A stretch of DNA of 20,543 bases, taken from positions 1-20,543 of IMG/VR virus record IMGVR_UViG_3300010334_000354. One strand, given 5' to 3'. The notes under the pieces were generated by a model. The model was not told the origin of the DNA. It saw only the letters and a program-made list of their open reading frames with translations, and ran no database searches. The position numbers and the translations under genes were made by a program. This stretch comes from a virus. Below, piece after piece: positions 2,792-20,543 of the stretch (position 1 is its first letter; the number at the start of each line of letters is the position of its first letter).

Positions 2792-2820
2792 TTGACATTT
2801 TATCGTGTTTAATATATTAG
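2792..2820 (+). promoter_or_regulatory. sigma70-like promoter before gene 45
   Basis: TTGACA at 2792-2797, a run of T, then TATTAG at 2815-2820 with 17 bp spacing (TATATT at 2813 is a nearby alternative). It starts one base after the glycosyltransferase stop, forming TGAGTTGACA, an arrangement also seen at 7100 and 17486. The leader reaches ATG 2852 through a GGAG at 2841-2844. Confidence 0.75.
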
Positions 2821-2851
2821 TGATATATGCAATTTATTATGGAGCATATTA

Positions 2852-7102: not shown

Positions 7103-7103
7103 G

Positions 7104-7132
7104 TTGACATTTTTCTCATTCCGTGGTAGTTT
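7104..7132 (+). promoter_or_regulatory. early promoter before the 49-residue gene
   Basis: TTGACA 7104-7109, TTTTT, 17 bp spacing, then TAGTTT 7127-7132 with TG one base before it (extended -10). The leader contains AAACCATAAGGAATGGAG before ATG 7157. Confidence 0.82.
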
Positions 7133-7156
7133 AAACCATAAGGAATGGAGATCAAC

Positions 7157-7306
7157 ATGATACCTGAACAGCTCATCCGTACTATTCTTCCAAATAATCT
7201 TGGTGCTAGATTTTGGCAACTTCATTTTGAACAAACTGAAGGAGTTCGTTTCTCAAAACGAAAGCTTCGTAGGCTTGCGGGAAAAGTATGGAATAAAAGT
7301 AATTGA
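7157..7306 (+). CDS. small basic protein, unknown
   Basis: A 49-residue reading frame starting at ATG 7157, seven bases after a GGAG and directly behind an early promoter. It begins IPEQLIRTILPNNLGARFW and ends in a basic stretch (SKRKLRRLAGKVWNKSN). I recognise no family. Small basic proteins from phage early promoters often bind host proteins or nucleic acid, but nothing here shows that. The stop TGA lies inside the TTGACA box of the next promoter. Confidence 0.65.
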   Translation: MIPEQLIRTILPNNLGARFWQLHFEQTEGVRFSKRKLRRLAGKVWNKSN

Positions 7307-7331
7307 CATTTTTCCAGAACCGTGGTAGACT
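7303..7331 (+). promoter_or_regulatory. early promoter overlapping the preceding stop codon
   Basis: TTGACA 7303-7308, 17 bp spacing, TAGACT 7326-7331 in a TGGTAGACT extended -10 context. Its TGA is the stop codon of the upstream small gene. The leader repeats AAACCATAAGGAATGGAG before ATG 7356. Confidence 0.85.
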
Positions 7332-7355
7332 AAACCATAAGGAATGGAGATTGAC

Positions 7356-7427
7356 ATGATTACTACTCTATGTGCCGGATCATTTAAACTTAAAAAAGGA
7401 TTATATTATGACTATTGTTGGTATTAG
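7356..7427 (+). CDS. possible 23-residue leader peptide
   Basis: ATG 7356 sits seven bases after the GGAG of a conserved early leader. The frame runs 23 codons (ITTLCAGSFKLKKGLYYDYC, then W-Y) to a TAG, overlapping the start of the next small gene in another frame. It may be a leader peptide coupling translation of the downstream membrane protein, or what remains of a gene shortened by deletion. The leader and its spacing argue that it is translated. The peptide itself shows no function. Confidence 0.4.
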   Translation: MITTLCAGSFKLKKGLYYDYCWY

Positions 7428-7539
7428 TTTGTCCACTCTTGTGGAAATTTTTGTTGTTGGTTGGGTCGTAGGTGTTCTGACAGTGATTGGTCTTATTATT
7501 CTTTCATTTAATTGGTCTAAAAAGAAAAAGAAAGATTGA
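7408..7539 (+). CDS. small single-span membrane protein
   Basis: A 43-residue frame from ATG 7408, preceded by AAAAAAGGA at a suitable distance. Residues about 10-34 form one long hydrophobic segment (LVEIFVVGWVVGVLTVIGLI). The tail is strongly basic (WSKKKKKD), which predicts a cytoplasmic C-terminus by the positive-inside rule. No family recognised. It shares the promoter at 7303 with the 23-codon frame and ends within the next TTGACA box. Confidence 0.7.
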   Translation: MTIVGISLSTLVEIFVVGWVVGVLTVIGLIILSFNWSKKKKKD

Positions 7540-7564
7540 CATTTTTCTTGATTTGGTATATATA
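7536..7564 (+). promoter_or_regulatory. early promoter overlapping the preceding stop codon
   Basis: TTGACA 7536-7541 followed by TTTTT, 17 bp spacing, TATATA 7559-7564. The TGA inside TTGACA ends the membrane-protein gene. The leader has TATGGAGG before ATG 7593. Confidence 0.82.
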
Positions 7565-7592
7565 AAATATATGCACTTTTATGGAGGTTGAT

Positions 7593-8082: not shown

Positions 8083-8868
8083 ATGAAGTTATGTCCAAGA
8101 TGCGGTAATGAAAATATTAGAGTTAAAGCAAAATATTGTAGTGACAAATGTTCACATCAACACGATGATAAAACTAAATTACTTCTCAGTGAAAAACGTA
8201 AACAATATTTAAAGGATAATCCAGATAAGCATGTATGGAAAAGACATACTAAATTTAAATCTGGTCCTTGTGAACATTTAAAGAAATATTTAATTTCTAA
8301 AGGTTTAGTTTTTATTGAAGAGTGGCAACCCCTTCAATCTAAATTTTATTCTATTGATATTGCATTTCCAGATATAAAGCTTGGTATTGAAGTAAATGGT
8401 AATCAGCATTACGATAGATTTGGAAATTTAAAAGATTATTATAAACTTAGACATAATGAAATTGAAGCATCGGGATGGATTTTAATTGAATTACATTATT
8501 CAAGTTGCTATAACATAGAACTAATAGATAAGATTATTAGTATTCAATTTCAACCAGATTACACTGAATATTTTAAGATTGCGGAAGAAAGAAAAATTAG
8601 AAAAATTAAAAGGACAAAAAAAGAAGTAGGTGAATCTGTGAGGAATAAAACAGATTTAAGATGGAGTCCATATAAAGATTTAATTTTAACTTCTACTATA
8701 GATTTTACTAAATTCGGTTGGGTTTCAAAAGTTTCAAAAATATTAGGTATAAAAACACAAAAGGTAAACGGATGGATGAAACGACATTTGCCTGTCTTTT
8801 ACGAAGAAAAATGTTTTAAACGAGCCTCTGTTGTCGTAGGTTCGAGTCCTGGTAGGCGCACCACTTAA
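8083..8868 (+). CDS. Vsr/EDxHD-like homing endonuclease
   Basis: A 261-residue protein with an N-terminal zinc knuckle (C4, C7, C19, C23 in CPRCGN and YCSDKC). The nuclease core YSIDIAFPDIKLGIEVNGNQ (89-108) continues H-Y and then YYKLRHNEIEASGWILIEL. The spaced D92, E103 and QHY resemble the PD-(D/E)XK fold of Vsr, DUF559 and EDxHD homing endonucleases such as I-Bth0305I. WVSKVSKILGIKTQKVNGWM near the end looks like a DNA-binding helix-turn-helix. The last residues (SVVVGSSPGRRTT) are encoded by the 3' end of a tRNA gene, so the frame reads through tRNA-derived DNA. It lies directly before an intact tRNA, a location known for T4 seg genes. It is A+T-rich compared with its neighbours. Confidence 0.75.
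   Translation: MKLCPRCGNENIRVKAKYCSDKCSHQHDDKTKLLLSEKRKQYLKDNPDKHVWKRHTKFKSGPCEHLKKYLISKGLVFIEEWQPLQSKFYSIDIAFPDIKLGIEVNGNQHYDRFGNLKDYYKLRHNEIEASGWILIELHYSSCYNIELIDKIISIQFQPDYTEYFKIAEERKIRKIKRTKKEVGESVRNKTDLRWSPYKDLILTSTIDFTKFGWVSKVSKILGIKTQKVNGWMKRHLPVFYEEKCFKRASVVVGSSPGRRTT
8836..8863 (+). pseudogene. orphan tRNA 3' end (T-arm, acceptor strand, CCA)
   Basis: GTAGG, the canonical T-loop TTCGAGT and CCTGG (imperfect stem) are followed by the acceptor strand TAGGCGC, discriminator A and encoded CCA at 8861-8863. It is 6 bases before the intact tRNA, as in a tRNA cluster. No cloverleaf 5' half is present upstream, where the endonuclease coding sequence lies, so the gene appears broken by the insertion. 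Confidence 0.6.
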
Positions 8869-9693: not shown

Positions 9694-10166
9694 TGGCTAT
9701 AATCTATAAAGCACCAGAACTTGTTCCTTATAATAACAATAAAGAGTTTCGTATCTTCCTTGCCGGTTCGATTGATATGGGTAAGGCAGAGAATTGGCAG
9801 GAACGACTAGAACGCGAACTTGCCGAATATGAAGATGATGTAGTTATTTGCAACCCTCGCCGGGATGATTGGGATTCTACCTGGGTGCAATCAATTAACA
9901 ACCCTCAGTTCAATGAGCAGGTAACCTGGGAACTTGAAAATATCGATAATGCGGATCTTGTAGTTTTCTACTTTGATCCTAATGGGCAGGCACCGATCAC
10001 ACTTATGGAACTTGGTCTTGTAGCTGGATGGGAAATTCCAGCTATTGTTTGTTGCCCTGATGGCTATTGGCGCAAGGGAAATGTCGAGATGATCTGCGAT
10101 AGATATGGCATCGCACTCTGCACCAACATTGATGATTTTATTGCTTTGATTAAAGAGGAGATCTAA
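9693..10166 (+). CDS. nucleoside 2-deoxyribosyltransferase-like protein
   Basis: A 157-residue protein of the Rossmann-like nucleoside 2-deoxyribosyltransferase superfamily. The first strand and loop read IFLAGSIDMGKAENWQERLE. CNPRRDDWDSTW and QFNEQVTWELENIDNADLVV follow, then YFDPNGQAPITLMELGLVAG. The glutamate in LMELG corresponds to the catalytic nucleophile of the family. Classical members move deoxyribose between bases. The phage subgroup may hydrolyse or remodel modified nucleotides and is not well characterised. The TAATG overlap couples it to the gene before. Together with the dCMP deaminase and MazG-like enzymes it suggests active management of the nucleotide pool (inference). Confidence 0.8.
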   Translation: MAIIYKAPELVPYNNNKEFRIFLAGSIDMGKAENWQERLERELAEYEDDVVICNPRRDDWDSTWVQSINNPQFNEQVTWELENIDNADLVVFYFDPNGQAPITLMELGLVAGWEIPAIVCCPDGYWRKGNVEMICDRYGIALCTNIDDFIALIKEEI

Positions 10167-10167
10167 G

Positions 10168-10428
10168 ATGAAATATTCTACAGAACAATGGTGGCATGTC
10201 TATCTTTATCTTATTATTTCTACTTTTCTTGTTGCTGCTTTTACTGCTACAATAACTCAGATTAGTACCATTCCATTTCTTATTTCATTTGGAGCTATGG
10301 GCTTTATTTCTGGTGCTGCATTTCTAGCTGAATCTACTGTAACGGGTGCTACAGCTAAGGCGGGCGGTCTGTTTTTCACTTGTTTGACTTGTATTTTAGT
10401 TTGTTATTTTCTACCAATTCCCAACTAA
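10168..10428 (+). CDS. three-span membrane protein
   Basis: An 86-residue hydrophobic protein. Likely membrane segments are residues 11-27 (VYLYLIISTFLVAAFTA), 34-55 (IPFLISFGAMGFISGAAFLA) and 66-83 (GGLFFTCLTCILVCYFLP), with short polar links. ATG 10168 is preceded by GAGGAG. Function unknown. A holin-like role cannot be excluded, but there is no endolysin beside it. The stop overlaps the end of the opposing endonuclease gene by a few bases, marking the left edge of that insert. Confidence 0.72.
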   Translation: MKYSTEQWWHVYLYLIISTFLVAAFTATITQISTIPFLISFGAMGFISGAAFLAESTVTGATAKAGGLFFTCLTCILVCYFLPIPN

Positions 10429-11255
10429 GGAGATTTGATATGAGTGCATTTAGTTCCGTGCCATCTTCTATAATTGGCTTTATTTGTTTTCTTACCACAA
10501 AATTCACATTCATGATCTATTATATTTAAATGATTTGCTAATCCAACTTTATTTTTATTAATTCCAACTAATTCACCTGAAATAAACTTTGGATCATCTT
10601 TAGAAACATTATATGTGTATCCTAGTTTATCTTTAACTGTTACCATATTAATTTTACTTTTGTTTGATTTTCCAATTTTTGATTTTGATTTTTTAATTCT
10701 GGTTTCAGGCGTATCAGATAATCTTCCTTTACTCCACAGATCCGGTAAATCACCTTTTATTAATTTTTCAAATTTGCCATCGTTTGCCCAATAACTTCCT
10801 TTATTTCTTTTGCCTATAGATTCTCGAGATTCTTCAGAAAAATATTGTCCAGATTTATATCCTAGAGATAGATAAAAATTCTTTTCTTCAGATGTAATAT
10901 AAATAGTTTTACCGTTTTTGTTTACTGGAATTTTATTCTTTATAGATCCTGAACCAAAAAAGTTCGAGTCTACTGCATTTTTCATATTAATATACAATGG
11001 ATTGTGCATAACATTAAATAACACATGAATTTTTCTTTCATATAACAAGGCATCATTTCTATTTTCAAACCTTTTTATTATCTTGATTTTAAATAGATTT
11101 AGGTTATTTTTAAGTTCCAATTTAAATATATTTTTAAATTGTTTACTTGAGACCGAACCGAAATAACCATTTTCTACATTTTTAATTGATGAACTTCCTA
11201 TATAAAATGGTGGCATTAATTTACCTGAATAAATTGTAAGATATACGCAATACAT
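10425..11255 (-). CDS. GIY-YIG homing endonuclease with C-terminal zinc finger
   Basis: A 276-residue seg-like free-standing endonuclease against the direction of all neighbours. The N-terminus YCVYLTIYSGKLMPPFYIGS carries the two GIY-YIG strands, then GYFGSVSSK and a conserved YINMKNAV. The middle is basic with SIGKRNKGSYW. Near the end a CEFCGKKTNKANYRRWHGTKC-type element, with cysteines at the CxxC pair and a late His/Cys, is the small zinc finger common in these phage enzymes. AGGAG and an exact TATAAATA box precede ATG 11255. On the plus strand, GGAG and an orphan ATG at 10441 lie inside this gene, perhaps the displaced start region of the gene now beginning at 11310. Confidence 0.88.
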   Translation of the reverse strand: MYCVYLTIYSGKLMPPFYIGSSSIKNVENGYFGSVSSKQFKNIFKLELKNNLNLFKIKIIKRFENRNDALLYERKIHVLFNVMHNPLYINMKNAVDSNFFGSGSIKNKIPVNKNGKTIYITSEEKNFYLSLGYKSGQYFSEESRESIGKRNKGSYWANDGKFEKLIKGDLPDLWSKGRLSDTPETRIKKSKSKIGKSNKSKINMVTVKDKLGYTYNVSKDDPKFISGELVGINKNKVGLANHLNIIDHECEFCGKKTNKANYRRWHGTKCTHIKSP

Positions 11256-11309: not shown

Positions 11310-12005
11310 ATGAAGGTAAATATAGGACCATATAGAAGAGATCTAGTTCCAATCTCATCTTGGCAGCGCAGATATGAACAATGGAGATCAGAAGATCATT
11401 ATCTTGATGAGGCTGATTACACCTGGTATGATAAGATTATCATGAGATCTTTTGATTTTCTTTATAGTGTCTTTCTTCCATTGAACTGTTGGTCAAATAA
11501 CAGACCTCGTAAAGTTAAAGTACACATTGATGATTATGATGTTTGGGGTGCCGATCACACTTTAGCAATGATTATTCATCCTGTTCTTGTCAAGCTCAAA
11601 CAATGTAAGCAGGGTTCACCTAATGTAGATGATGAGGATGTTCCAGAGCATCTAAAGTCTACATCTGCCGGTCCTAAAGAAAATGAATGGGATACCGATG
11701 AGTTTCATCATACTCGTTGGGACTATGTTCTTGATGAAATGATTTGGGCATTCGAGCAGCATACAGACGAAAACTGCAATGATAATCAGTTTCATCATAA
11801 TCCTGAACAACTTGATATTTTATTTGAGCCTATCACGGAAGGTGATCTTGCTGGTAAGGCATACAGTACCATAAAGATGAACCACCAAAAAGATCCTAAC
11901 AAACCTAAGTACTGGATTGACGAAGAAGGTAAGAAAGCACATTATGAACGGATTGACAACGGCCGCCGATTGTTTGCTAAATACTTCAGTTCTTTATGGG
12001 ACTAG
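11310..12005 (+). CDS. conserved phage protein of unknown function
   Basis: A 231-residue soluble, acidic protein with many Trp, His and Asp residues. Landmarks are WSNNRPRKVKVHIDDYDVWG, ADHTLAMIIHPVLVKLKQ, VDDEDVPEHLKST, and then WDTDEFHHTRWDYVLDEMIW. This set of blocks recurs in hypothetical proteins of many large phages, to my memory, without assigned function. The paired histidines and aspartates (DEFHH, HHNPEQ) could bind metal. I start it at ATG 11310, after a weak GGTGAT site. An earlier in-frame ATG at 11259 lies inside the endonuclease promoter region and is unlikely. The weak ribosome site may result from the endonuclease insertion just upstream. Confidence 0.75.
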   Translation: MKVNIGPYRRDLVPISSWQRRYEQWRSEDHYLDEADYTWYDKIIMRSFDFLYSVFLPLNCWSNNRPRKVKVHIDDYDVWGADHTLAMIIHPVLVKLKQCKQGSPNVDDEDVPEHLKSTSAGPKENEWDTDEFHHTRWDYVLDEMIWAFEQHTDENCNDNQFHHNPEQLDILFEPITEGDLAGKAYSTIKMNHQKDPNKPKYWIDEEGKKAHYERIDNGRRLFAKYFSSLWD

Positions 12006-12045
12006 TTTTTAATAAAAAATTAATCTCGATTTATGACTATTTTTG

Positions 12046-12073
12046 TTGACATTTTTTGTAGATGTATTATTAG
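12046..12073 (+). promoter_or_regulatory. early promoter before the secreted protein pair
   Basis: TTGACA 12046-12051 with the usual T run. The -10 is less certain: TATTAG 12068-12073 gives 16 bp spacing. AAAGGG before ATG 12106 is the ribosome site. The conserved GGAATGGAG leader is absent. Confidence 0.65.
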
Positions 12074-12105
12074 TTATATTATAATATGTAGAAAGGGAAT
12101 TGATT

Positions 12106-12468
12106 ATGAAATTGTTTCTTGGTTTGGCAATGATTTCTATTGCTACTTCTGCTAATGCTGCTTCGGTTACTGATAAGGACTTTCTAAGGATAATTGCAAA
12201 ATATGAAGCAATTGAAAATACAAAGCATAAGACAGTTACCAAGTATGAAGCAAGTCAAAATACAAGATATAAAGCAAATGTCAATCCTGTTAATGTTGTA
12301 AAATATAAACCAGATATCACACCCGTTAATTTCACAAGTCAAAATGCAAGGTATGAAGCAATGCAAAATGCTCAAGCTGCAGTTAATGCTGCTAATGAAG
12401 CTCGTGCTGAAATGGCTAAGTTTAAATTGAGACGCAATAGAAAAAGGGTACTTAATGCTTTTAACTGA
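12106..12468 (+). CDS. small secreted protein with YEA/QN repeats
   Basis: A 120-residue protein with a clear Sec signal peptide: MK, a hydrophobic core LFLGLAMISIATS, and an ANA-AS cleavage site after about residue 18. I chose ATG 12106, since the TTG at 12100 would add two residues before the basic start. The mature part is polar and repeats a loose unit (KYEAIENTKHK, KYEASQNTRYKA, ARYEAMQNAQAA), ending in a basic tail. It probably acts in the periplasm. The last 14 bases overlap the next gene, suggesting a functional pair. No family recognised. Confidence 0.72.
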   Translation: MKLFLGLAMISIATSANAASVTDKDFLRIIAKYEAIENTKHKTVTKYEASQNTRYKANVNPVNVVKYKPDITPVNFTSQNARYEAMQNAQAAVNAANEARAEMAKFKLRRNRKRVLNAFN

Positions 12469-13480
12469 TTTTATTACTTTTTTATTTGTAAGTACTTCAC
12501 CTCAACCCTTGGTGACTATTAGACTTGATAGACTACCTCATACAGTAGAAAAGTACAAGTACGTTAACTTTAAACCTGTTATTGCGGCAGGTATTGGTAA
12601 GACTTCGCTGAATTATCTGGGCTTTAGTGGTTCAGTCCCTTCTGAAGGTTCTATTGACTGGAATAAGAATCTTAAGAAACTTTGGGCTCAAAAACTAAAA
12701 ATTCAAGATGTGAGTTCTGCTACAAAAAAATCATTTACAAAGATAACATATAGTTACATTTCCAGTCCTGCGGAAATAATGACTATAGAAAAACATATAC
12801 GATTACTTGATAATCATCTAAGTAATGTCAAATCTTCCATTAAATGGGCTAACTTATGTTCTGACTCACATCTCTCTAAGGGGTGTGAGTCATTTAAGCA
12901 AGCTTCACTCTCAATTGATGGTACAATGCTCACAGCATACTCGATGACTGAAATTATGCCATATCAAATTGGACGTCAGAATTACGAGATGATGAATCTC
13001 TACATGCGCTATGCTGGTCGAAACTATTTAGATAAGATTCCGTCATTGGGTGACCCACTACTTAGTATGGGACGATATCAATTCACTTCGTATGCTTTAG
13101 GTAATGATAAAGATGGACCTCGAAGTGCTAACAAGATTGCAAAGTACTCAGATTATCCAATTCCTCAGTCTGTGATTAGACTTAAGGGTCTTTCAAGTGA
13201 TCGCGCAGCATACTACTTTTCAGTCTATAACATTCGGTCATTATTTAAAGATATGTCTGCTGTACAGATTCTAAACTATAATCGGTTTTGCCGAGGTAAA
13301 GAATCTCTGACTGAGTACATTGCTACGGCACATCACAATCCTAGCAACGCCAAACGCAATATGATTCGATGGATTGATGGGAAATGCAAAAAACCTCTTG
13401 TCACATATCTGACCGGTGATCTTCCGCTCTATGCTAAGAAGACGTCAATAAATTACGTCGAGCTAAAAAATCGCATTTAA
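12455..13480 (+). CDS. possible lysozyme-like or transglycosylase-like protein
   Basis: A 341-residue protein with a hydrophobic N-terminus (MLLTDFITFLFVSTSP) that could be a weak export signal or anchor. Residues about 180-215 include MTEIMPYQIG and SLGDPLLSMGRYQFTSYALG. Later TEYIATAHHNPSNAKRNMIRW occurs. These recall, in order, the catalytic Glu, the 'S-G-xQ' segment and the 'AYNAGPG..V.RW' segment of SLT-type lytic transglycosylases. The match is loose and not proven. ATG 12455 follows AAAAAGGG and overlaps the secreted-protein gene. If correct, the pair may act on the cell wall during infection or lysis. A 9-bp perfect inverted repeat lies inside the gene at 12862-12892. Confidence 0.6.
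   Translation: MLLTDFITFLFVSTSPQPLVTIRLDRLPHTVEKYKYVNFKPVIAAGIGKTSLNYLGFSGSVPSEGSIDWNKNLKKLWAQKLKIQDVSSATKKSFTKITYSYISSPAEIMTIEKHIRLLDNHLSNVKSSIKWANLCSDSHLSKGCESFKQASLSIDGTMLTAYSMTEIMPYQIGRQNYEMMNLYMRYAGRNYLDKIPSLGDPLLSMGRYQFTSYALGNDKDGPRSANKIAKYSDYPIPQSVIRLKGLSSDRAAYYFSVYNIRSLFKDMSAVQILNYNRFCRGKESLTEYIATAHHNPSNAKRNMIRWIDGKCKKPLVTYLTGDLPLYAKKTSINYVELKNRI
12862..12892 (+). repeat. perfect inverted repeat inside the coding region
   Basis: TGACTCACA (12862-12870) and TGTGAGTCA (12884-12892) are exact inverse complements separated by 13 bases. The stem could form in mRNA. No T tract follows. Confidence 0.55.
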
Positions 13481-13536
13481 CTTTAAAAATCGTTTGACAT
13501 TTTTGTTGGTCCGTGGTAGACTAAACTATAAGGAAT
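13481..13536 (+). repeat. 56-base direct repeat, copy 1 (promoter cassette)
   Basis: By eye this is identical over 56 bases to 14237-14292, running from the end of the upstream gene through TTGACA, TGGTAGACT and AAGGAAT. A third, shorter version at 16144 shares the first 23 bases. Confidence 0.8.
13494..13522 (+). promoter_or_regulatory. early promoter, cassette copy 1
   Basis: TTGACA 13494-13499, 17 bp spacing, TAGACT 13517-13522 with TGG before it (extended -10). The leader to ATG 13547 reads AAGGAATAGAG, slightly changed from the common GGAATGGAG. Confidence 0.87.
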
Positions 13537-13546
13537 AGAGATCGAA

Positions 13547-13846
13547 ATGTCTAAGTTTGAAAAAGATAACTTCGAATACTTTGGTGGATACCTTCATTAT
13601 CTCATTGGTGGTCATACTATGGACTGCGAACGTAAGTTTGTAGCTCGGTTCAAACATCGTGGTCCTGTTACCAAGGGTAAGTTTGTAGCTGTTCTTAAGA
13701 AGCATTACTCGGTTGAAGATTACTTTGCCAAGCTTGATGCTGGTCGTGCTCCTCTTCAAATTCTTGAAGAGGATGGTCATCTGGTCTTCCATCCCAGTGC
13801 TGATGGAAAGCGTGCATTCTTTGTTCTTTGTGGAAAGGTTCTCTAA
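13547..13846 (+). CDS. hypothetical early protein
   Basis: A 99-residue soluble protein beginning MSKFEKDNFEYFGGYLHYLI. It includes KFVARFKHRGPVTKGKFVAV, LKKHYSVEDYFAKLDAGRAP and a C-terminal HPSADGKRAFFVLCGKVL. Mixed alpha/beta character and basic patches are visible, but no motif or family. The promoter leader places ATG 13547 firmly. The stop shares bases with the next ATG (CTAATG), so the two are coupled. Short early proteins of this sort often modify host functions (general expectation, not shown here). Confidence 0.8.
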   Translation: MSKFEKDNFEYFGGYLHYLIGGHTMDCERKFVARFKHRGPVTKGKFVAVLKKHYSVEDYFAKLDAGRAPLQILEEDGHLVFHPSADGKRAFFVLCGKVL

Positions 13847-14022
13847 TGAATTGGTTCTACTTTCCTCAGACTGTTTATATTGAAGCCCATAAGGCCTTTA
13901 TGGAAAAGACTGGAGCTAAGCCATCTGAGATGGAAGCGTATTCACTGAAAGATCCTGCGTGGTTTATCGAGGTCGTCTTTGCCCACTTGGATGGGACTGA
14001 CTTTCCTGAAATGAAAGGTTAA
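13846..14022 (+). CDS. small hypothetical protein
   Basis: A 58-residue protein starting at ATG 13846, one base into the upstream TAA. An earlier in-frame ATG at 13828 lies in the preceding gene and has no ribosome site. It starts MNWFYFPQTVYIEAHKAFME, and its middle (EKTGAKPSEMEAYSLKDPAW) and end (FIEVVFAHLDGTDFPEMKG) are soluble. Function unknown. It is the second gene in the cistron from the 13494 promoter. Confidence 0.72.
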   Translation: MNWFYFPQTVYIEAHKAFMEKTGAKPSEMEAYSLKDPAWFIEVVFAHLDGTDFPEMKG

Positions 14023-14029
14023 GTTTAAT

Positions 14030-14242
14030 ATGAAAAAGATTATTAGTTATAATATGCTCGATTGGGGAAAATTTACTCTTGGTCGAGTAGTCCAGCTTCG
14101 TACTGCTACAGATTCGTATCTCGGTCACATTACGGGCTTTAAGCTTGTCGAGCTTGATACTTATTTTGATACAGTTGTGATGGTCAAGTGGTGTGACGGG
14201 CAAGAATATGCAGTTCATCCTACAGATGTTATTCTTCTTTAA
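14030..14242 (+). CDS. small beta-rich protein (SH3-like?)
   Basis: A 70-residue protein with alternating strands: FTLGRVVQLRTATDSYLGHI, TGFKLVELDTYF, DTVVMVKWCDGQEYAVHPTD, VILL. This pattern of short strands ending in a 'V.W.DG.E..V.P.D' motif recalls small SH3- or KOW-like barrels that bind nucleic acid or proteins. The inference is from the pattern only. Weak AAGTTTAAT precedes the ATG, so it is probably translated as the third gene behind the 13494 promoter. It ends in the copy-2 promoter cassette. Confidence 0.72.
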   Translation: MKKIISYNMLDWGKFTLGRVVQLRTATDSYLGHITGFKLVELDTYFDTVVMVKWCDGQEYAVHPTDVILL

Positions 14243-14292
14243 AAATCGTTTGACATTTTTGTTGGTCCGTGGTAGACTAAACTATAAGGAAT
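14237..14292 (+). repeat. 56-base direct repeat, copy 2 (promoter cassette)
   Basis: Identical to 13481-13536 by eye. The first base after it differs (G here, A in copy 1). The repeat begins within the last codons of the upstream gene in both places, as if the cassette had been copied as a unit. Confidence 0.8.
14250..14278 (+). promoter_or_regulatory. early promoter, cassette copy 2
   Basis: TTGACA 14250-14255, 17 bp spacing, TAGACT 14273-14278 in extended -10 context. The leader has the full GGAATGGAG before ATG 14303. Confidence 0.87.
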
Positions 14293-14302
14293 GGAGATTG
14301 AC

Positions 14303-14473
14303 ATGGACGGATTTTGGATTATTCTTGAAGGTGTTGGCGGTGAACTTGATCGTGAGTTCGTTCGTGAAGGTGACGACGTTGCATCGGCACTCAAGGAATT
14401 GCTTGATGGTGATTGGTCTAATCTTGATGCTGGAGATAAGATCTCTATCGTTGTTGGTTGGACCGAACTTTAA
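14303..14473 (+). CDS. small acidic protein
   Basis: A 56-residue acidic protein starting at ATG 14303, six bases after the GGAG. The ATG at 14291 is part of the conserved leader and would overlap the ribosome site. It reads MDGFWIILEGVGGELDREFV, then EGDDVASALKELLDGDWSNL and KISIVVGWTEL: a likely helix between two strands. No family recognised. Strong acidity is common in phage proteins that mimic DNA or bind host enzymes, but that is only a thought. Confidence 0.72.
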   Translation: MDGFWIILEGVGGELDREFVREGDDVASALKELLDGDWSNLDAGDKISIVVGWTEL

Positions 14474-14485
14474 AGGATTTTGATC

Positions 14486-14764
14486 ATGACTAATCATATA
14501 TCTAGCCGTAAACGTAATACCGGAGAAGTTCCTGCATCAATTGGAATTATCCAACGTTCAAAAGAAAAGTCGTTCGAAGTTTTTGATAATCTTCCCCCAG
14601 AAATTAGAGCTATTCTTCGGGATGCTCCACACAATGCTAATTTTCGAAGTGCTAATCCTCTGTATCTACCTACTGCGGAAACCTTGCGTAAAAATCTAAA
14701 AGAACAAAGCCGAGCAATTATTCTTGCAAATTACGGACCAGATCATCCTGCTCTGGCTGTATAA
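14486..14764 (+). CDS. DUF6525-like hypothetical protein
   Basis: A 92-residue protein starting at ATG 14486 (AAAGGA upstream) rather than TTG 14480. The central block FEVFDNLPPEIRAILRDAPH, followed by N-A-N-F, resembles a small family seen in alphaproteobacterial phages and mobile elements that I remember as DUF6525 ('YD-LP-P-R--L--A--'). Function unknown. It is basic at the N-terminus (SRKRNTGEV). If the family memory is right, it adds slight support for an alphaproteobacterial host. It follows the 14303 gene by 12 bases in the same cistron. Confidence 0.65.
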   Translation: MTNHISSRKRNTGEVPASIGIIQRSKEKSFEVFDNLPPEIRAILRDAPHNANFRSANPLYLPTAETLRKNLKEQSRAIILANYGPDHPALAV

Positions 14765-14769
14765 AATGG

Positions 14770-14798
14770 TTTACTTTTTTCTCAATATAGATTATAAG
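14770..14798 (+). promoter_or_regulatory. variant early promoter before RNA ligase 1
   Basis: TTTACT 14770-14775, then TTTTTCTC, 17 bp spacing, TATAAG 14793-14798. It keeps the T run and spacing of the other early promoters but has a weaker -35. AAAGGG lies before ATG 14822. Confidence 0.6.
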
Positions 14799-14821
14799 AA
14801 ACTATATTGAAAGGGATTGTT

Positions 14822-16039
14822 ATGAAGTACGAATTTCCTATCATTCAGAATATCTCGGAAGTCCTTGCTGCTATCGAAGGGCACGACGAGATCACTGTCG
14901 CAAAGCGTGACGGTTATACCATCATTAATTATGCAGTTGTGATGGAGGATACGTTCCCTCCTGTGAATGTCGCTGGTGGATCAGCTAAGATGCGTGCAGA
15001 GCGTTCTAGGCACGACGCACTTCGTCGTGAATGTCGTGGTCTTGTCTTTGATAACGAGACTGGTGCGATTCTTCGTCGTCCTTATCACAAGTTCTTTAAT
15101 GTCAACGAGCGTGAGGAAACTCTTGCTTCGCATGTAGATCTTTCGGTTGGTCATGCTATACTTGAGAAGCTTGACGGCTCTATGATTGCTCCTTTCATTT
15201 TCAATGGTGAACTTATCTGGGGCACTCGTTTGTGTTCGCAGGACTTTCATGATGACGTTGCTGCTTTTGTGAAGAATAATTGGGTATATGCTGCGTTTGC
15301 GGAAAATATAATTCAAAACGGATTTACTCCTATCTTTGAGTGGCACAGCCAAAAGAACCGCATCGTTCTTGATTATGGTTCAGATGAACAGTTGATTTTG
15401 ACTGCCGTTCGCAATATGAGTAACGGCGCGTATGTCAATTATAACGTTCTTCGTGATTGGGCACTTACAAATGGAATTCCTTATGTTCGGGCTTATGATC
15501 CTCAGACTGATATGAAGGAGTTTCTTGACTATGTGCGCGACCTCAAGGATGTAGAAGGCTTCGTTGTCCGCTTTGATGATGGTCATATGCTGAAGCTTAA
15601 GTGCGACTGGTACGTCCAGATCCACAAGGCAAAGGAAGCTATTCTTCAGGATCGCAACATTGTTGAGTTGATCTTGGATGGCAAGCTTGACGATATCAAG
15701 GCTCATCTTTTGGACGATGACCGTGATCGTTTGACTAAGTTCGAGAATGACTTCAATAAGATCATTCGTCCTTTGGCTTTGAGCATCGTTGTTCAAGTTT
15801 CAAACTGTCAGCGAATTGGTAATATGGACCGTAAGACTTTTGCTCTTGATTACGCTCCTAAGATGGATGCTTTCAGTCGCCCTATTGCCTTCTCGATGTG
15901 GGATGACGTACAGTACACTGATGCTGTTGATCTTTGCGAAGTGAAGGTTCGGGCTTCTATCCGTAACAGCCTTGGTCGTACTGTGAAGTATGAAGCTATT
16001 CGTGATGTCTGGTTTCCTGGGTTGAGCTACAATGCTTAA
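14822..16039 (+). CDS. rnlA: RNA ligase 1 (RnlA/Rnl1-like)
   Basis: A 405-residue ATP-dependent RNA ligase (T4 Rnl1 is 374). Motif I is E115-K116-L-D-G-S, with K116 as the adenylated lysine. Upstream, ECRGLVFDNETGAILRRPYH and KFFNVNE match the typical N-terminal Rnl1 blocks. Later FEWHS (motif III region), EGFVVRF (motif IV) and LKLKCDWY (motif V) are all present, so it should be active. T4 Rnl1 reseals tRNA cut in the anticodon loop by host defence nucleases such as PrrC, after end healing by polynucleotide kinase. Here a kinase domain lies 500 bases downstream. ATG 14822 is supported by AAAGGG. An upstream TTG at 14807 is not. Confidence 0.93.
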   Translation: MKYEFPIIQNISEVLAAIEGHDEITVAKRDGYTIINYAVVMEDTFPPVNVAGGSAKMRAERSRHDALRRECRGLVFDNETGAILRRPYHKFFNVNEREETLASHVDLSVGHAILEKLDGSMIAPFIFNGELIWGTRLCSQDFHDDVAAFVKNNWVYAAFAENIIQNGFTPIFEWHSQKNRIVLDYGSDEQLILTAVRNMSNGAYVNYNVLRDWALTNGIPYVRAYDPQTDMKEFLDYVRDLKDVEGFVVRFDDGHMLKLKCDWYVQIHKAKEAILQDRNIVELILDGKLDDIKAHLLDDDRDRLTKFENDFNKIIRPLALSIVVQVSNCQRIGNMDRKTFALDYAPKMDAFSRPIAFSMWDDVQYTDAVDLCEVKVRASIRNSLGRTVKYEAIRDVWFPGLSYNA

Positions 16040-16142
16040 TCCCAGAAAACTCAAGCGCAACGATGTGGTAATCGAACGGCTCAATCGAGGTTATGCTGAT
16101 GGTGGTAAGAAAGCCAGAGACATTCTAGAAAAGAAAGTCTAA
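16032..16142 (+). CDS. 36-residue basic protein overlapping rnlA
   Basis: ATG 16032 overlaps the last 8 bases of rnlA. The peptide is basic and helical-looking (MLNPRKLKRNDVVIERLNRG, then KKARDILEKKV). It ends just before the third cassette-type promoter. No family recognised. It lacks a clear ribosome site and would rely on coupling to rnlA. It is real if translation is coupled, otherwise a chance frame. Confidence 0.5.
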   Translation: MLNPRKLKRNDVVIERLNRGYADGGKKARDILEKKV

Positions 16143-16155
16143 GCTTAAAAATCGT

Positions 16156-16184
16156 TTGACATTTTTCCACAACCATGGTAGACT
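16156..16184 (+). promoter_or_regulatory. early promoter, partial cassette copy
   Basis: TTGACA 16156-16161, TTTTT, 17 bp spacing, TAGACT 16179-16184 in TGGTAGACT context. Upstream bases CTTAAAAATCG match the 56-base cassette. The leader is shorter (GAGGAAT) before ATG 16204. Confidence 0.85.
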
Positions 16185-16203
16185 AAATTATGAGGAATCT
16201 GAT

Positions 16204-16377
16204 ATGAACGCGTGGCTCTTTTCACTGCTTGGTGGATATCTTGTCCTTGATGTTGTCGCATCGTTTCTTTACGCAGGCAAACCACTTGCAGTTATCTTTG
16301 TCTCACTGTTTCTGATTAATTTTCTTTGGTCAATGATTATAGTCATTTTCGGGTTGCTTTGTGGAGAGGAACGCTAA
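16204..16377 (+). CDS. two-span membrane protein
   Basis: A 57-residue hydrophobic protein with segments at about 4-22 (WLFSLLGGYLVLDVVASFL) and 27-51 (LAVIFVSLFLINFLWSMIIV). The C-terminus is short and charged (CGEER). ATG 16204 is set by the promoter leader. The longer upstream frame runs through the promoter and is not real. Unknown function. Its TAA overlaps the next ATG. Confidence 0.75.
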   Translation: MNAWLFSLLGGYLVLDVVASFLYAGKPLAVIFVSLFLINFLWSMIIVIFGLLCGEER

Positions 16378-16544
16378 TGTTTGAATATCTTAAGCGCGGA
16401 CATGAAGGTCGATATGATTTTGTTTCGTCTCAAGAACTAAATCGACTTGGCTCAGAAGGTTGGGAACTGGTTTCAGTTGTCATATCTCGAGTTCAGGATG
16501 TAGAACAGATGATTTACTTTTTTAAGCGTGGATTAGTTCATTGA
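16377..16544 (+). CDS. DUF4177-like small protein
   Basis: A 55-residue protein starting at ATG 16377 (TAATG overlap, GGAGAGG upstream). The pattern YDFVSSQELNRLGSEGWELV, then SVV and a final YFFKRG, matches the DUF4177 signature 'LN-LG-EGWELVSV...-FKR', a short beta-alpha-beta module of unknown function found in bacteria and phages. The upstream in-frame ATG at 16326 lies within the membrane-protein gene and is rejected. The stop overlaps the TTG start of the kinase gene. Confidence 0.78.
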   Translation: MFEYLKRGHEGRYDFVSSQELNRLGSEGWELVSVVISRVQDVEQMIYFFKRGLVH

Positions 16545-17017
16545 ATAAGACTTGTACCTTTCTGATTGGTGTTCCAGCGTCGGGTAAGTCGACTTGGATT
16601 AAGAACAATGTTGACTTTAAGAAAGTCAAGGTCATCTCGACTGACGATATTCTTGACCAAATTGCTGCCGTTCAGGGTAAGACTTACAATGAGGTCTTTA
16701 AGGATCACATTGCTGATGCGGAAAAGCAGATGTTTAATGAACTTGAACTGGCAATGATAATACACAAGGACATTGTGATTGATCGTACCAATCTCAACAG
16801 AAAGGCTAGGAATCGCTTCCTGCTGCGGATGAAGGATAATGGATATACCTTCCATGCTATCATCTTCCCTACTCCAGGCGACGTTGAGTGGCGTAGACGC
16901 CTGGATTCTCGTCCAGGCAAGACCATTCCCGAGTTTATTCTTAAGAATATGAAGGAAGGTTTTCAGCCTATCTCGGATGATGAAGGGTTTTCCTCAGTTA
17001 AGATTAATGGGATTTAA
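16541..17017 (+). CDS. polynucleotide 5'-kinase domain protein (PseT N-domain-like)
   Basis: A 158-residue P-loop kinase. Walker A is G10-V-P-A-S-G-K16-S17-T, followed by STD35D with Asp35 at the same place as the catalytic Asp35 of T4 polynucleotide kinase. DRTNLNRKARNRFL matches DTNLNPERR, and DSRPGKTIPEFILKNMKEGF matches the T4 KRGTKAVPIDVLRSMYKSM lid. It would phosphorylate 5'-OH ends of RNA or DNA. T4 PseT has about 301 residues with a C-terminal 3'-phosphatase. That domain is absent, so 3'-end healing must come from elsewhere if this is a repair enzyme. The start is TTG 16541, overlapping the previous stop as TTGA. No better start lies before the P-loop. Confidence 0.85.
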   Translation: MNKTCTFLIGVPASGKSTWIKNNVDFKKVKVISTDDILDQIAAVQGKTYNEVFKDHIADAEKQMFNELELAMIIHKDIVIDRTNLNRKARNRFLLRMKDNGYTFHAIIFPTPGDVEWRRRLDSRPGKTIPEFILKNMKEGFQPISDDEGFSSVKINGI

Positions 17018-17488
17018 ATGAACATCACAGTTACTGGTACTAACGAACATTTCAGTAAATTGTTAATTGAGGCTGCTAACTTTTTTGCTAATATTCTAAT
17101 GGACCCTCGTATGGTTCGCAATCTTAATATTGAAGTAGAAGTTGACAAAAATTCAGATTATGAAGGTGAGTGTATTGACGAGGAAGGAACTAAAAATCCC
17201 CGTTGGTTCACCATTAGTCTTAAACAACAAGAACTTGAGGATATGATTAGAGTTCTTGCACATGAGATGGTTCATGTCAAACAGCATGCCAAGAACGAAC
17301 TTCAATCTGGGTATGTAGTTCCTGCCCGAGGTGGTCTAAAGATTACTTCTAAGTGGAAAGGTACTCTTTGGAAACCTAAGCGGCAGGAAGATCCTTACTT
17401 TGACAGCCCTTGGGAGCTGGAGGCGTACGGTAAGGAAGTCGGTCTTTTTCAGCGATATATAACTTTTCGAGATAAACTTATAAAATGA
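17018..17488 (+). CDS. SprT-like zinc metalloprotease
   Basis: A 156-residue protein with the zincin motif H82-E83-M-V-H86 in VLAHEMVHVKQHAK and a later SPWELEAYGKE, the third-ligand helix pattern seen in SprT-like proteins. Eukaryotic SPRTN cleaves DNA-protein crosslinks. The role of phage and bacterial SprT-like proteins is mostly unknown. The start ATG directly follows the kinase stop. Lying between the kinase and RnlB genes suggests co-expression with nucleic-acid repair, but not a shared pathway. It ends one base before an early promoter (TGAGTTGACA). Confidence 0.85.
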   Translation: MNITVTGTNEHFSKLLIEAANFFANILMDPRMVRNLNIEVEVDKNSDYEGECIDEEGTKNPRWFTISLKQQELEDMIRVLAHEMVHVKQHAKNELQSGYVVPARGGLKITSKWKGTLWKPKRQEDPYFDSPWELEAYGKEVGLFQRYITFRDKLIK

Positions 17489-17489
17489 G

Positions 17490-17518
17490 TTGACATTTTT
17501 CCTGGAATGGATTATACA
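17490..17518 (+). promoter_or_regulatory. early promoter before the 17544 gene
   Basis: TTGACA 17490-17495, TTTTT, 17 bp spacing, TATACA 17513-17518. The leader CTATAGGGAATGGAG before ATG 17544 is close to the common form. Confidence 0.83.
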
Positions 17519-17543
17519 TAATCTATAGGGAATGGAGATTGAT

Positions 17544-17765
17544 ATGAAAACTTTCACTTTTACCGCTGAACAGATCAAAGATATCTATCGGGCTGGAATT
17601 GCTCATGGTGGAGATGAAGCAACTGCATATGAACATGGTAGTTCTACTCATCGTGATCAGTTTGAAAACTGTGTCGATGCAGTGTTTGACATTGTCAACG
17701 ATGGTAAATCTTGGAAAAATTATGATTATGTCACTTGGAATACTGTCAAAGAGTGGTTCAAATGA
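17544..17765 (+). CDS. hypothetical early protein
   Basis: A 73-residue protein starting at ATG 17544 behind GGAG. The ATG at 17532 is in the leader. It reads MKTFTFTAEQIKDIYRAGIA, then HGGDEATAYEHGSSTH and FENCVDAVFDIVN, ending with YDYVTWNTVKEWFK. It is probably mostly helical. The AEQIxxIYxAGI-G.xEA pattern looks like a widespread phage hypothetical family, but I cannot name it. The stop overlaps the next ATG (ATGA). Confidence 0.75.
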   Translation: MKTFTFTAEQIKDIYRAGIAHGGDEATAYEHGSSTHRDQFENCVDAVFDIVNDGKSWKNYDYVTWNTVKEWFK

Positions 17766-18242: not shown

Positions 18243-19313
18243 ATGATTAAGTTTCCCTCGATAGATCAATACCGGAATGTCATTCGGCATGTACAGACAC
18301 ATGCTCGTTTCGTTGGTAAGGACGAAAACGGAGATGCAATTTACGATGCATCACGTCCGCTCCCAAAGCTAAAGTTTCGTGGCACTGTAAAGCTGCATGG
18401 TACTAATGCTGGTATCGTGTATGATGTTGCTACCGATACTCTCAGCTTCCAGTCTCGTGAGCGTGAACTTTCACTGATTTCGGATAACGCAGGCTTCATG
18501 CTTACTATGCTGAAGTTTAAGACTGAACTGCTAGAGTACTTCCGTGAACTTATCAGTGATGAACGCCTTGATCCTAGTCGTTCTGATAATCCTAAGAAGA
18601 TTGTTATTTTTGGTGAATGGTGTGGTCGTGGCATTCAGAAGGGTGTAGCAATCAGCGAAGTTGATCGTATGTTTGTTGTCTTTGCTCACAAGGAAGTATA
18701 TGCCGACGGATATACATATTGGCAAGATCTCTTTGGGGCTGGTGAAGATGTTTCTTTATCACAGGAAGCAGATAAGGTAATTCGATGGATTGGAGAGTTT
18801 CCAACTTATGAAATCGAAATTGACTTTGCTTTCCCTGAGATTGCTCAGAACAAGATGATCGAAATCACTGAAGCTGTTGAAGCTGAATGCCCAGTTGGTA
18901 AGGCTTTTGGTATTTCTGGAGTGGGGGAAGGTGTAGTTTGGACATGTATTACACCGGGATGGAACGATTCTGGAACCTGGTTTAAGGTTAAAGGAGAACT
19001 GCATTCAGCTTCCAAGGTTAAGACACTTGCTTCGGTAGATGTAGAAGCTGTAGAAAGTCTGCGGGCTTTTGTAGAAGCTACTGTTACTGAAGCTCGTCTT
19101 GAACAGGGTTTGGACAACCTCGTCCGTGAACAGTTGCTTCCATTTGAGATGAAGAGCCTTGGTGACTTCATTCGGTGGGTCTACAACGACGTCCTGAAGG
19201 AAGAACAGGATACTCTTGTAGCTTCTGGGATTGACCCTAAGAAGCTTGGTGGAGCAATTGCTAACATTGCACGGCCTTGGTACATTCGTAAGTTTAATGA
19301 AGGAGTTAAGTAA
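18243..19313 (+). CDS. rnlB: RNA ligase 2 (RnlB/Rnl2-like)
   Basis: A 356-residue protein of the Rnl2 family (T4 Rnl2 is 334), which seals nicks in double-stranded RNA. Motif I is K50-L-H-G-T-N with adenylated K50. Motif III is VIFGEWCGRGIQKGV, close to the T4 VFGEFAGPGIQKNV. Motif IV is GVGEGVVW and motif V FKVKGELH. The C-terminal helical domain ends NIARPWYIRKF, mirroring VLRPAWIELVS in T4. With Rnl1 and the kinase domain in the same 4.5 kb, this phage has two ligases of different families. The T4 Rnl2 role in infection is not settled. AAAGG precedes ATG 18243. It overlaps the next start (TAATG). Confidence 0.93.
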   Translation: MIKFPSIDQYRNVIRHVQTHARFVGKDENGDAIYDASRPLPKLKFRGTVKLHGTNAGIVYDVATDTLSFQSRERELSLISDNAGFMLTMLKFKTELLEYFRELISDERLDPSRSDNPKKIVIFGEWCGRGIQKGVAISEVDRMFVVFAHKEVYADGYTYWQDLFGAGEDVSLSQEADKVIRWIGEFPTYEIEIDFAFPEIAQNKMIEITEAVEAECPVGKAFGISGVGEGVVWTCITPGWNDSGTWFKVKGELHSASKVKTLASVDVEAVESLRAFVEATVTEARLEQGLDNLVREQLLPFEMKSLGDFIRWVYNDVLKEEQDTLVASGIDPKKLGGAIANIARPWYIRKFNEGVK

Positions 19314-19537: not shown

Positions 19538-19773
19538 GTACTATAATAGAAGATGGAATTAAACTTATAAGCATCGACGATGAGTGGATGGATGGAAATT
19601 TCACTGTGTCTGGTCCTCGATGTGGTGATGTAGTGACAGTAAGAAAAGTTGCTGTTTATTATGCTGGTGGAGAGTTTGAACCAATTGCATGGTTTGATGA
19701 ATTTCCAGGTGACACACTTAATGATGGCTTTTTTATAGGTCGAGGTGGTTTTGTGTTGGGTATTAACGGTTGA
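19534..19773 (+). CDS. hypothetical acidic protein
   Basis: A 79-residue protein coupled to the membrane-protein gene (ATGA). It reads MSTIIEDGIKLISIDDEWMD, GNFTVSGPRCGDVVTVRKVA, VYYAGGEFEPIAWFDEFPGD, then GFFIGRGGFVLGING. The run of strands with turns predicts an all-beta fold. The 'P..G..VTV........I.W.DEFP' layout resembles small phage beta-barrel proteins without known function. The stop TGA lies inside the TTGACA box of the following promoter. Confidence 0.74.
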   Translation: MSTIIEDGIKLISIDDEWMDGNFTVSGPRCGDVVTVRKVAVYYAGGEFEPIAWFDEFPGDTLNDGFFIGRGGFVLGING

Positions 19774-19798
19774 CATTTTTATAGAACTGTGATAAGAC
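19770..19798 (+). promoter_or_regulatory. early promoter overlapping the preceding stop codon
   Basis: TTGACA 19770-19775, TTTTT, 17 bp spacing, TAAGAC 19793-19798. The TGA in TTGACA ends the upstream gene. The leader has ATAGGAG before ATG 19819. Confidence 0.8.
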
Positions 19799-19818
19799 TA
19801 AAATATAGGAGATAAGAT

Positions 19819-20130
19819 ATGTTTTCATTTTTTAAACGTAAAAAGATTGTAGAAAAAGTACCAACTAGATTGGTAGAAAAAGTACCAAGTGGATTGATAG
19901 AAACTTCCCGGACTACTGGTGTACGAAAGTCAACCAATTCTAACTTTACTGAGTCTCGAGTCTACAATAACACTGATGATGTCTCGGACACATTCGGTGC
20001 AATTATGGCAGCTCAGGTTATCAGCGATGTTTCGAGCTATTCATCTTCAAGTGATAGCAGTAGTTCGTCTGATTCGTTTAGCGGCGGTGGCGGTGACTTC
20101 GGCGGCGGTGGCTCATCTGGTGATTGGTAA
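19819..20130 (+). CDS. low-complexity Ser/Gly-rich tail protein
   Basis: A 103-residue protein. The N-terminus is short, hydrophobic-basic (MFSFFKRKKIVEK) and followed by a near-repeat (VEKVPTRL, VEKVPSGL). The middle is polar. The last 35 residues are almost only Ser, Asp and Gly, ending GGGGDFGGGGSSGDW. A final 'GGGGxxGGGGxSGxW' tail is typical of bacterial DUF2207 and TPM-domain membrane proteins, though those domains are absent here. It may be an anchored or exposed flexible tail. Function unknown. ATG 19819 follows AGGAG at a normal distance. Confidence 0.75.
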   Translation: MFSFFKRKKIVEKVPTRLVEKVPSGLIETSRTTGVRKSTNSNFTESRVYNNTDDVSDTFGAIMAAQVISDVSSYSSSSDSSSSSDSFSGGGGDFGGGGSSGDW

Positions 20131-20381: not shown

Positions 20382-20543
20382 ATGTTTAAGAAGTTTACGA
20401 TTGCATTTATGGCTGCTCTCATGGTTGCTACTCCTGCTATGGCAGGTAAGTTCGGTGGCGGCAGTTCGTTCTCAAGCTCGAAGTCATTCTCGAGTGGATC
20501 CAGTTTCCGATCCAGCAGCTTCAGTTCGTCCAGCTATCGTCCT
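20382..20543 (+). CDS. secreted Ser-rich protein, cut by the window end
   Basis: 54 codons from ATG 20382 to the window edge with no stop, so the gene continues. It has a clear signal peptide: KK, a hydrophobic core FTIAFMAALMVATP and an AMA-GKF cleavage site near residue 21. The mature start is dominated by Ser (GGGSSFSSSKSFSSGSSFRS), resembling the Ser-rich tail of the 19819 protein. AAGGA precedes the ATG. An export route and a flexible surface or periplasmic role are likely. The identity of the rest is unknown. Confidence 0.75.
   Translation, partial: MFKKFTIAFMAALMVATPAMAGKFGGGSSFSSSKSFSSGSSFRSSSFSSSSYRP

Follow-up and report, generated by a model that had tools for sequence, protein, structure and literature searches.

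A repeated promoter-plus-leader cassette at small-gene junctions of an uncultivated T4-like phage

The repeat pair and its genomic setting

We analysed a 20,543-nucleotide stretch of viral DNA (IMG/VR record IMGVR_UViG_3300010334_000354; hereafter the window) in which two identical sequences flank three small genes (Table 1). Direct comparison bore out the original prediction of a 56-base identity between 13481–13536 and 14237–14292 (CTTTAAAAATCGTTTGACA...AAGGAAT) with a start-to-start spacing of 756 bases. The likeness extends further, to 96% identity over 69 bases, and reaches both start codons. This pair is the longest exact repeat in the window and, because the maximum in 50 third-order Markov resamples was 18 bases, chance is excluded as its source. 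A third copy had been said to share 23 bases from 16144; a copy is indeed present there, but the exact run is 22 bases long (TTAAAAATCGTTTGACATTTTT) and occupies 16145–16166. The repeat had also been described as starting in the terminal codons of the upstream gene. This is so for the right copy, which starts in gene 14030–14242, but the left copy starts one base past the stop codon of gene 12455–13480.

That prediction had missed two more close copies (7104 and 7303) and five that are more divergent (2792, 7536, 12046, 17490 and 19770); all are on the plus strand. Together with the sites at 13494, 14250 and 16156 they make up the ten TTGACATTT(T) promoters of the plus strand. The sequence TTGACATTTT occurs ten times on the plus strand of the window and not at all on the minus strand, and the single minus-strand occurrence of the shorter TTGACATTT, at 12284, lies within a gene.

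Table 1. Cassettes of the window and the genes between the two identical copies
Feature	Coordinates	Strand	Description
Divergent TTGACATTTT promoter	2792–2851	+	Precedes sliding-clamp gene
Type A cassette	7104–7156	+	Spacer CTCATT; 31-base exact match to the cassette of relative L010
Type A cassette	7303–7355	+	Spacer CCAGAA; precedes shortened remnant gene
Divergent TTGACATTTTT-family promoter	7536–7592	+	Conserved in place in L010, L016/L103 and L108
Divergent TTGACATTTTT promoter	12046–12105	+	Precedes gene 12106–12468
Left cassette copy	13481–13546	+	A-rich upstream element; -35 TTGACA at 13494; ATG at 13547
99-aa gene	13547–13846	+	phrog_22119, function not assigned; first gene between the copies
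58-aa gene of the block	13846–14022	+	L108 relative at 9331
70-aa gene of the block	14030–14242	+	L108 relative at 9721
Right cassette copy	14237–14302	+	Same as left copy over 14237–14292; -35 at 14250; ATG at 14303
Third, partial copy	16145–16203	+	Same upstream element and -35 (16156); different spacer CCACAACCATGG; altered leader
Type B cassette (GGATTATACATAATCTATAGGGAATGGAGAT)	17490–17543	+	Part of a 54-base exact match with an L108 cassette at a different gene position
Divergent TTGACATTTTT promoter	19770–19818	+	Precedes gene 19819–20130

The last 123 bases of the window (20421–20543) are exactly the end, in reverse orientation, of a 141,838-base contig (IMGVR_UViG_3300010334_000029, here G002), and it is very probable that the window continues this contig. 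No overlap was found between the left end of the window and the piece holding the other end of G002. T4-type genes in the window encode gp44/gp45-type clamp proteins, namely a sliding clamp and a clamp loader, and RNA ligase 1 (phrog_223, phrog_168 and phrog_562). The gp45-type clamp (gp45 C-domain) was matched in the window and not in G002, and a RecA/UvsX-like gene (RecA family, 33.1 bits) in G002 and not in the window. We used these genes, the first three and RecA/UvsX, to recognise a T4-like phage, and the window and G002 would be parts of one such genome of at least about 162 kb. Together they hold 43 TTGACAT[TA]T promoters. In G002, 31 TTGACATTT sites are on the strand that continues the window and 3 are on the other.

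The cassette pattern (at most 3 mismatches) was present in 9 of the 15 records reached through our loci, and the same pattern backwards in 1 of the 15. The best clamp-loader relative among phage isolates belongs to Stenotrophomonas phage DLP6 (61%). When the phage isolate collection was searched with window 12000–17600 there was no near match and one weak RNA-ligase match, and the cassette itself had no match in that collection; genome contigs gave one weak partial relative.

An identical pair might also arise from a short repeat misresolved in the metagenome, and the virus record analysed here may itself be a fragment. We give such an assembly artefact a next to negligible probability: at 123 bases the exact overlap with G002 exceeds the repeat in length and hints at an assembly word size of more than 56, and the cassette family is present in other contigs.

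Promoter and leader parts of the cassettes

Each copy has the same order of parts: an A-rich stretch, TTGACA, a run of T, a spacer, TGGTAGACT, and a leader (AAACTATAAGGAATRGAGAT) that ends shortly before the ATG. In the left copy the 17-base spacer ends in GTTGGTCCGTGG, the extended -10 is TGGTAGACT and the leader is AAACTATAAGGAATAGAGAT. TTGACA-17-TAGACT with TG before the -10 was found at four sites, including 13494 and 14250, and Shine–Dalgarno-like AAGGA/GGAG lies within the leader. Because of the -35, the extended -10 and the Shine–Dalgarno-like leader, we regard the cassette unit as a promoter plus a ribosome-binding leader. A simple sigma70 scan of this AT-rich region was unspecific (47 sites vs 43.2 in shuffles), so the case for promoters rests on the repeated, co-oriented family. 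The cassette thus reads as a promoter-plus-leader unit repeated exactly at gene junctions, much as the original prediction of a promoter cassette had it. The family, its orientation and this anatomy are established, and the pair is two members of a co-oriented family of predicted sigma70-type promoters with a Shine–Dalgarno leader in a T4-like phage. By analogy with early promoters of other T4-like phages, as described in the available part of PMC1524935, the cassettes would work as promoters, and as early ones.

No terminator-like stem was seen at 13494 or 14250. Such stems, within 110 bases upstream or over the -35/T-run, were found at 7 of 84 promoters (mononucleotide-shuffle mean 1.35), and in three of those 7 (window 7104, L091 1678 and L096 1365) the -35 and T-run are the second arm of the stem. 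At window 7091–7109, the -35/T-run of the 7104 promoter supplies the second arm and U-tract of a terminator-like hairpin formed with the end of the upstream gene. The boundary orthologous to that of the left copy has a terminator stem in the relative L103, and one is visible in the sequence of L108 too.

Spacer types and leader types are combined cassette by cassette. At 13494 and 14250 the spacer GTTGGTCCGTGG is found with a AAGGAATGGAGAT leader, and in G002 (coordinate 30965) its partner is a CAACTGAGGAGATA leader; the spacer-specific pattern of the pair occurs in one other place only, in G002. In another genome, G007, the spacer CCGAAAGTAGAT is paired with several leaders.

To compare these two parts we took 84 promoters from nine genomes and kept the 51 whose leaders belong to the family; the remaining 33 were removed ahead of counting, and each copy was treated as independent. 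Spacers were more alike within genomes than between them, both in the 36 cassettes of WIN and G007 (5.82/12 vs 4.45, p=0.0008) and in all 51 (5.79 vs 4.86, p=0.0008), and this held without the 14250 copy (p=0.0012 and 0.0017). Leaders were not significantly more alike within genomes (p=0.17 with 36 cassettes and p=0.08 with 51). In one orthologous region (WIN 72–78 kb, G007 0–6 kb; 16 cassettes) the corresponding values were p=0.03 for spacers and p=0.78 for leaders. G007 4741, in that region, carries the WIN-type spacer TCAAAACAATGG, which counts against genome-specific spacers.

Orthologous cassettes shared a mean of 6.2/12 spacer bases, compared with 7.8 for the size-matched best same-genome paralogue and 7.2 for the best other-genome non-orthologue, and spacer sequence is thus not tied to gene position. 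When sizes were not matched (25 pairs), the spacer values were 5.8 to the orthologue and 10.0 to the best paralogue, and the leader values were 14.5/24 and 19.4/24 (p=0.011). Because leaders, too, are closer to paralogues and cluster among neighbours along the genome in the full set of 43 (p=0.003), a clean split between promoter and leader is not established. Like spacers clustered along the genome when a strict subset of 29 cassettes was taken (p=0.004), but the value was p=0.066 for the whole set of 43 and p=0.11 for the 24 family members; for pairs less than 5 kb apart, spacer likeness gave p=0.064. We do not rely on spacer clustering among neighbours, which is strong in the strict subset and lost in the full set. 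An automated list of orthologous promoters contained 37 between-genome pairs, 7 of them with both flanking genes matched. This list undercounts both-sided cases (the downstream gene of 7536, for example, was missed by it and found by tblastn), and we therefore discarded 30/37 as a rate of pairs that are not both-sided.

The needs of the polymerase and the ribosome might by themselves keep copies alike, or make them converge, with no exchange between sites. The conserved parts are the -35, the T-run, the -10 and the Shine–Dalgarno leader, and this agrees with such selection, as does the absence of a significant within-genome likeness of leaders. However, base-by-base constraint is not expected in the 12-base spacer, which varies widely yet is identical in the pair, and spacers are closer within genomes than between. 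The 56-base identity also takes in 13 bases upstream of the -35, where the family median is 35/56 (276 pairs), and orthologous boundaries carry different cassette types, as described below. We consider selection alone to be unlikely.

Cassettes and gene content in related genomes

Relatives of the 13547 product occur in 7 Sinorhizobium phage records (36%). L108 (3300013286_000074) was the only relative compared that spans the three-gene block; L016 stops inside it. The compared coding DNA of L108 is 80.8% identical to that of the window, with 66–71% for the two shared block genes, and that of L016/L103 is 85.2% identical. At the left boundary, L108 has a terminator and a different cassette type, followed by a 49-aa ORF (45 aa from an inner ATG) in place of the 13547 gene of the window. 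Next is a relative of the 13846 gene, then one extra gene, then a relative of the 14030 gene, behind which lies a third cassette type; the L108 block is two of the three window genes plus two others. In L016/L103 the 13547 relative stands behind a terminator and an L108-like left cassette, and in L109 behind an unrelated 51-base cassette. L109, a more distant relative, has its own repeated promoter-like cassette at 10124–10183 and 10716–10775 (a 51-base pattern in two copies 592 bases apart), the second of which precedes the 13547 relative.

Both block boundaries are therefore promoter sites in L108, and the left one is likewise in L016. Among the relatives compared, type-A sequence is identical at both boundaries in the window only, and one recent copying event is the simplest explanation for this. 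The bases upstream of the -35 of the right copy resemble the orthologous gene end in L108 (GTTCTTTAAAAACAGTTTGACA). There are hints that copying may have run from right to left, a direction that is uncertain because the same upstream element is also found at 16145 and at G002 sites.

A recent duplication of a cassette-bearing segment, followed by replacement of the genes between the copies, would likewise leave an identity that reaches beyond the -35 into upstream bases; in the right copy these bases are the L108-like end of gene 14030–14242. We regard a local duplication as quite improbable, since the genes that follow 13494 and 14250 were not reported as similar in protein sequence, the same upstream element lies at 16145 and before other cassettes, and L108 has cassettes at both boundaries.

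The original prediction was of a movable junction unit, with deletion or swapping of the three small genes between copies. Gene content and cassette type do differ at these junctions in relatives, but deletion of the block between the copies was not among the differences. Loss of 13547–14242 with one cassette left was not seen; L108 keeps a cassette at each end. Such a deletion is possible, and a search of viral_contigs for the exact recombinant-junction pattern found nothing, which is weak evidence as very near records may be absent from that collection. Relatives that keep all the genes beside diverged cassettes had been named as evidence to the contrary; L108, with two other cassette types around 2 of the 3 genes, goes some way towards this. 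A site-specific deletion or exchange device, or a mobile element, that acts between the two copies on this block would account for identical direct repeats flanking exactly three small genes. It is nevertheless very improbable in our judgement. The pair is 2 of the 43 TTGACAT[TA]T promoters of the window and G002, none of the three block genes matches a recombinase family, the ends of the L108 block have unlike cassettes, and the exact viral_contigs search gave no single-cassette recombinant. Cassette copying with replacement of neighbouring genes fits the data better than a two-copy deletion device.

Identical cassettes are also found at non-orthologous positions. Window 17490 and L108 4288 share 54 identical bases between different genes, despite the 80.8% identity of orthologous coding DNA. 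G007 2117 shares 51 identical bases with L091 1457 and L096 1144, and promoter-by-promoter comparison found no shared flanking gene. For the orthologues WIN 77691 and G007 5573 (82% protein identity) the leader is kept, as judged by eye, and each spacer agrees with that of another cassette in its own genome, at 11 and 12 of 12 bases respectively.

Gene content changes at such sites as well. The window, L010, L016 and L108 differ in the small genes that they carry behind a cassette at one slot, which is bounded by phosphoesterase gene 6344 (or a dehydrogenase-like gene) on one side and by gene 7408 on the other; the cassette always starts with the same GAGTTGACATTTTT, but two of the four have type A and two have type B. 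The slot is arranged differently again in L093, and one small gene (MI.NLSGGAFEL...) recurs in L016, L093 and L108. Behind the 7303 cassette, window 7356–7427 holds a short remnant (MITTLCAGSFKLKKG...) of this gene, which is longer in those three relatives; read by eye, it has apparently lost its middle. Between L091 and L096 (about 91% identical), an extra small gene begins with the leader tail AATGGAGATTGACATG, and its end lies exactly at the following cassette. These cases establish that cassette types differ at orthologous boundaries, that identical cassettes stand at positions that are not orthologous, and that individual changes in gene content end at a cassette. They suggest that copies are exchanged between sites and that cassettes mark the spots at which small genes enter and leave. 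Cassettes turn over and are probably copied between sites by recombination.

Gene replacements bounded by cassettes are clear in individual relatives. More widely, gene-content changes often end at cassettes, and this association weakens under controls. With a simple gene caller that missed some genes (16204–16377, for example), promoter junctions were broken in 78/89 directed comparisons and other junctions in 186/322. Counted per junction, the numbers were 45/49 and 126/173 (p=0.004); for gene pairs of at least 80 aa they were 11/14 vs 62/97 (p=0.37), and where the shorter gene was below 80 aa the difference had p=0.059. Against neighbouring junctions, the broken fraction was 0.87 vs 0.70 in directed comparisons (79; p=0.005) and 0.875 vs 0.79 in undirected comparisons with neighbours of the same region (40 promoter junctions; p=0.25). 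Cassettes thus often sit at break points, but their surroundings are variable too.

A proposed mechanism and related systems

The explanation that we think probable is a family of promoter cassettes whose copies are overwritten by recombination, with gene exchange at the cassettes. The cassettes would be promoters for the host RNA polymerase (sigma70-type), probably early, each starting a small operon; the left copy would serve genes 13547–14242 and the right copy 14303–14764. Copies would pair during recombination-based phage replication, and the sequence of one, its promoter part above all, would overwrite another by gene conversion or copy-choice. Genes beside a cassette could be exchanged or lost because cassettes put short stretches of homology at the boundaries of genes. 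That the pair is exactly identical would then reflect one recent copying event and not an ancient deletion device. Cassette replacement and gene replacement are observed; conversion would be the process behind them. That the identities stem from recombination and not from constraint is our inference, as is the direction in which copying ran. A candidate enzyme for cassette recombination is the product of the UvsX/RecA-like gene present in G002.

T4 amplifies and deletes DNA between matches of 6–10 bases, according to the available part of a report on tifA amplification under laboratory selection (PMC9391042), and a homology of just 50 bp is said to be sufficient for T4 recombination at reasonable frequencies (PMC4177764, in part). 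As T4 recombines at such short matches, identical direct copies of 56 bases are plausible substrates for deletion, duplication, circle formation and conversion. The tifA amplification resembles our case in its recombination at short homologies and differs in that the available part of PMC9391042 names no promoter cassette family.

A broader reading, which we hold only tentatively, is that early promoters evolve in concert. The promoter half would be continually overwritten within a genome and the leader half would more often stay with its gene; each lineage would have its own 'dialect' at dozens of slots, and arriving genes would be wired immediately into early expression. Against it, leaders too are on average closer to paralogues than to orthologues.

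The closest comparison is with PeSLs, a feature of which is the formation of mini-circles by exchange between neighbouring copies. These are promoter(early)-stem-loop cassettes of T4-type phages, reportedly described by Arbiol et al. in 2010 and Comeau et al. in 2014. In the available part of PMC4503421, PeSLs are reported to mediate shuffling in T4-type phages. Like PeSLs, which are described as modular shuffling sites, our cassettes are sigma70-like, predicted early promoters that recur between small genes in a T4-like phage. They also have many copies in variable regions (10 in the window and 31 in G002 on the matching strand), and the promoter at 13494/14250 is recognised as sigma70-like by sequence alone. 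By analogy, the cassettes may work like PeSLs. The pair differs in having no terminator stem-loop and in having a conserved Shine–Dalgarno leader that reaches the start codon, and because a stem-loop is absent at 13494/14250 we do not file the pair as PeSLs.

Early promoters of RB69, RB49, RB43, 44RR and Aeh1 are many, stand before core and novel genes and often have an A-rich upstream element (PMC1524935, in the part available). Our cassettes share the high number and the A-rich element; by contrast, near-identity here runs through the spacer and leader, and the -35 TTGACA is followed by TTTTT. For the T4-like phage DLP6, the available part of PMC5349666 describes 25 repeated motifs that lie ahead of gene clusters, with 22 arranged in twos. 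The motif is given there as a short consensus specific to the phage and is labelled as late viral promoters in the map legend, which sets it apart from a sigma70-type promoter with a leader.

A parallel in another phage group is provided by SAS/ESAS of Cluster K mycobacteriophages, which the available part of PMC3203893 describes as asymmetric repeats directly before start codons, mostly in one orientation. SAS is a 13-base start-associated element, and ESAS adds 17-base inverted repeats and mostly stays with a gene family (same source, in part). Here, the repeats are also directly upstream of start codons, but the unit is a promoter that changes at orthologous genes. The SAS-like 13-base GGGATAGGAGCCC (at most 2 deviations) had one match in the window, on the other strand at 15951–15963, and none at a cassette. 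ESAS-like 17-base inverted repeats are absent: around the left copy there is one 10-base pair with 42 bases between the arms, and around the right copy there is none.

Within a partial coverage of the literature, no listed report was found of homogenisation of phage early promoters within a genome, and we make no claim of priority. The sequences analysed, which come from uncultivated T4-like phages, give evidence that promoter cassettes are replaced at some slots and recur identically at others. This bears on how phages gather small host-takeover or counter-defence genes while keeping early expression. The DNA between two cassettes is a candidate exchangeable accessory operon, for which cassettes may be a practical guide.

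Several other features were noted. In three other records, a cassette promoter feeds a conserved non-coding leader (L082 3545–3612, minus strand; L094 2182–2250, minus strand; L090 12042–12105). The leader has a long predicted hairpin that pairs the Shine–Dalgarno region with a T-rich 3' side; 1 of the 21 predicted pairs is changed on both sides among the 3 sequences, and the L082 leader had no Rfam hit at the gathering threshold. The early region of the window is interrupted by three homing-/HNH-endonuclease-like genes, at 4488–5249, 8083–8868 and 10425–11255. The first is absent from L016, and the second is present in L108 (87% identity). A T4 RNA-ligase-1-like gene (14822–16039), a P-loop kinase gene (16541–17017) and a second RNA ligase gene (18243–19313) lie within 4.5 kb. 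We take these ligase, kinase and ligase genes to be a possible RNA-repair set against host anticodon nucleases.
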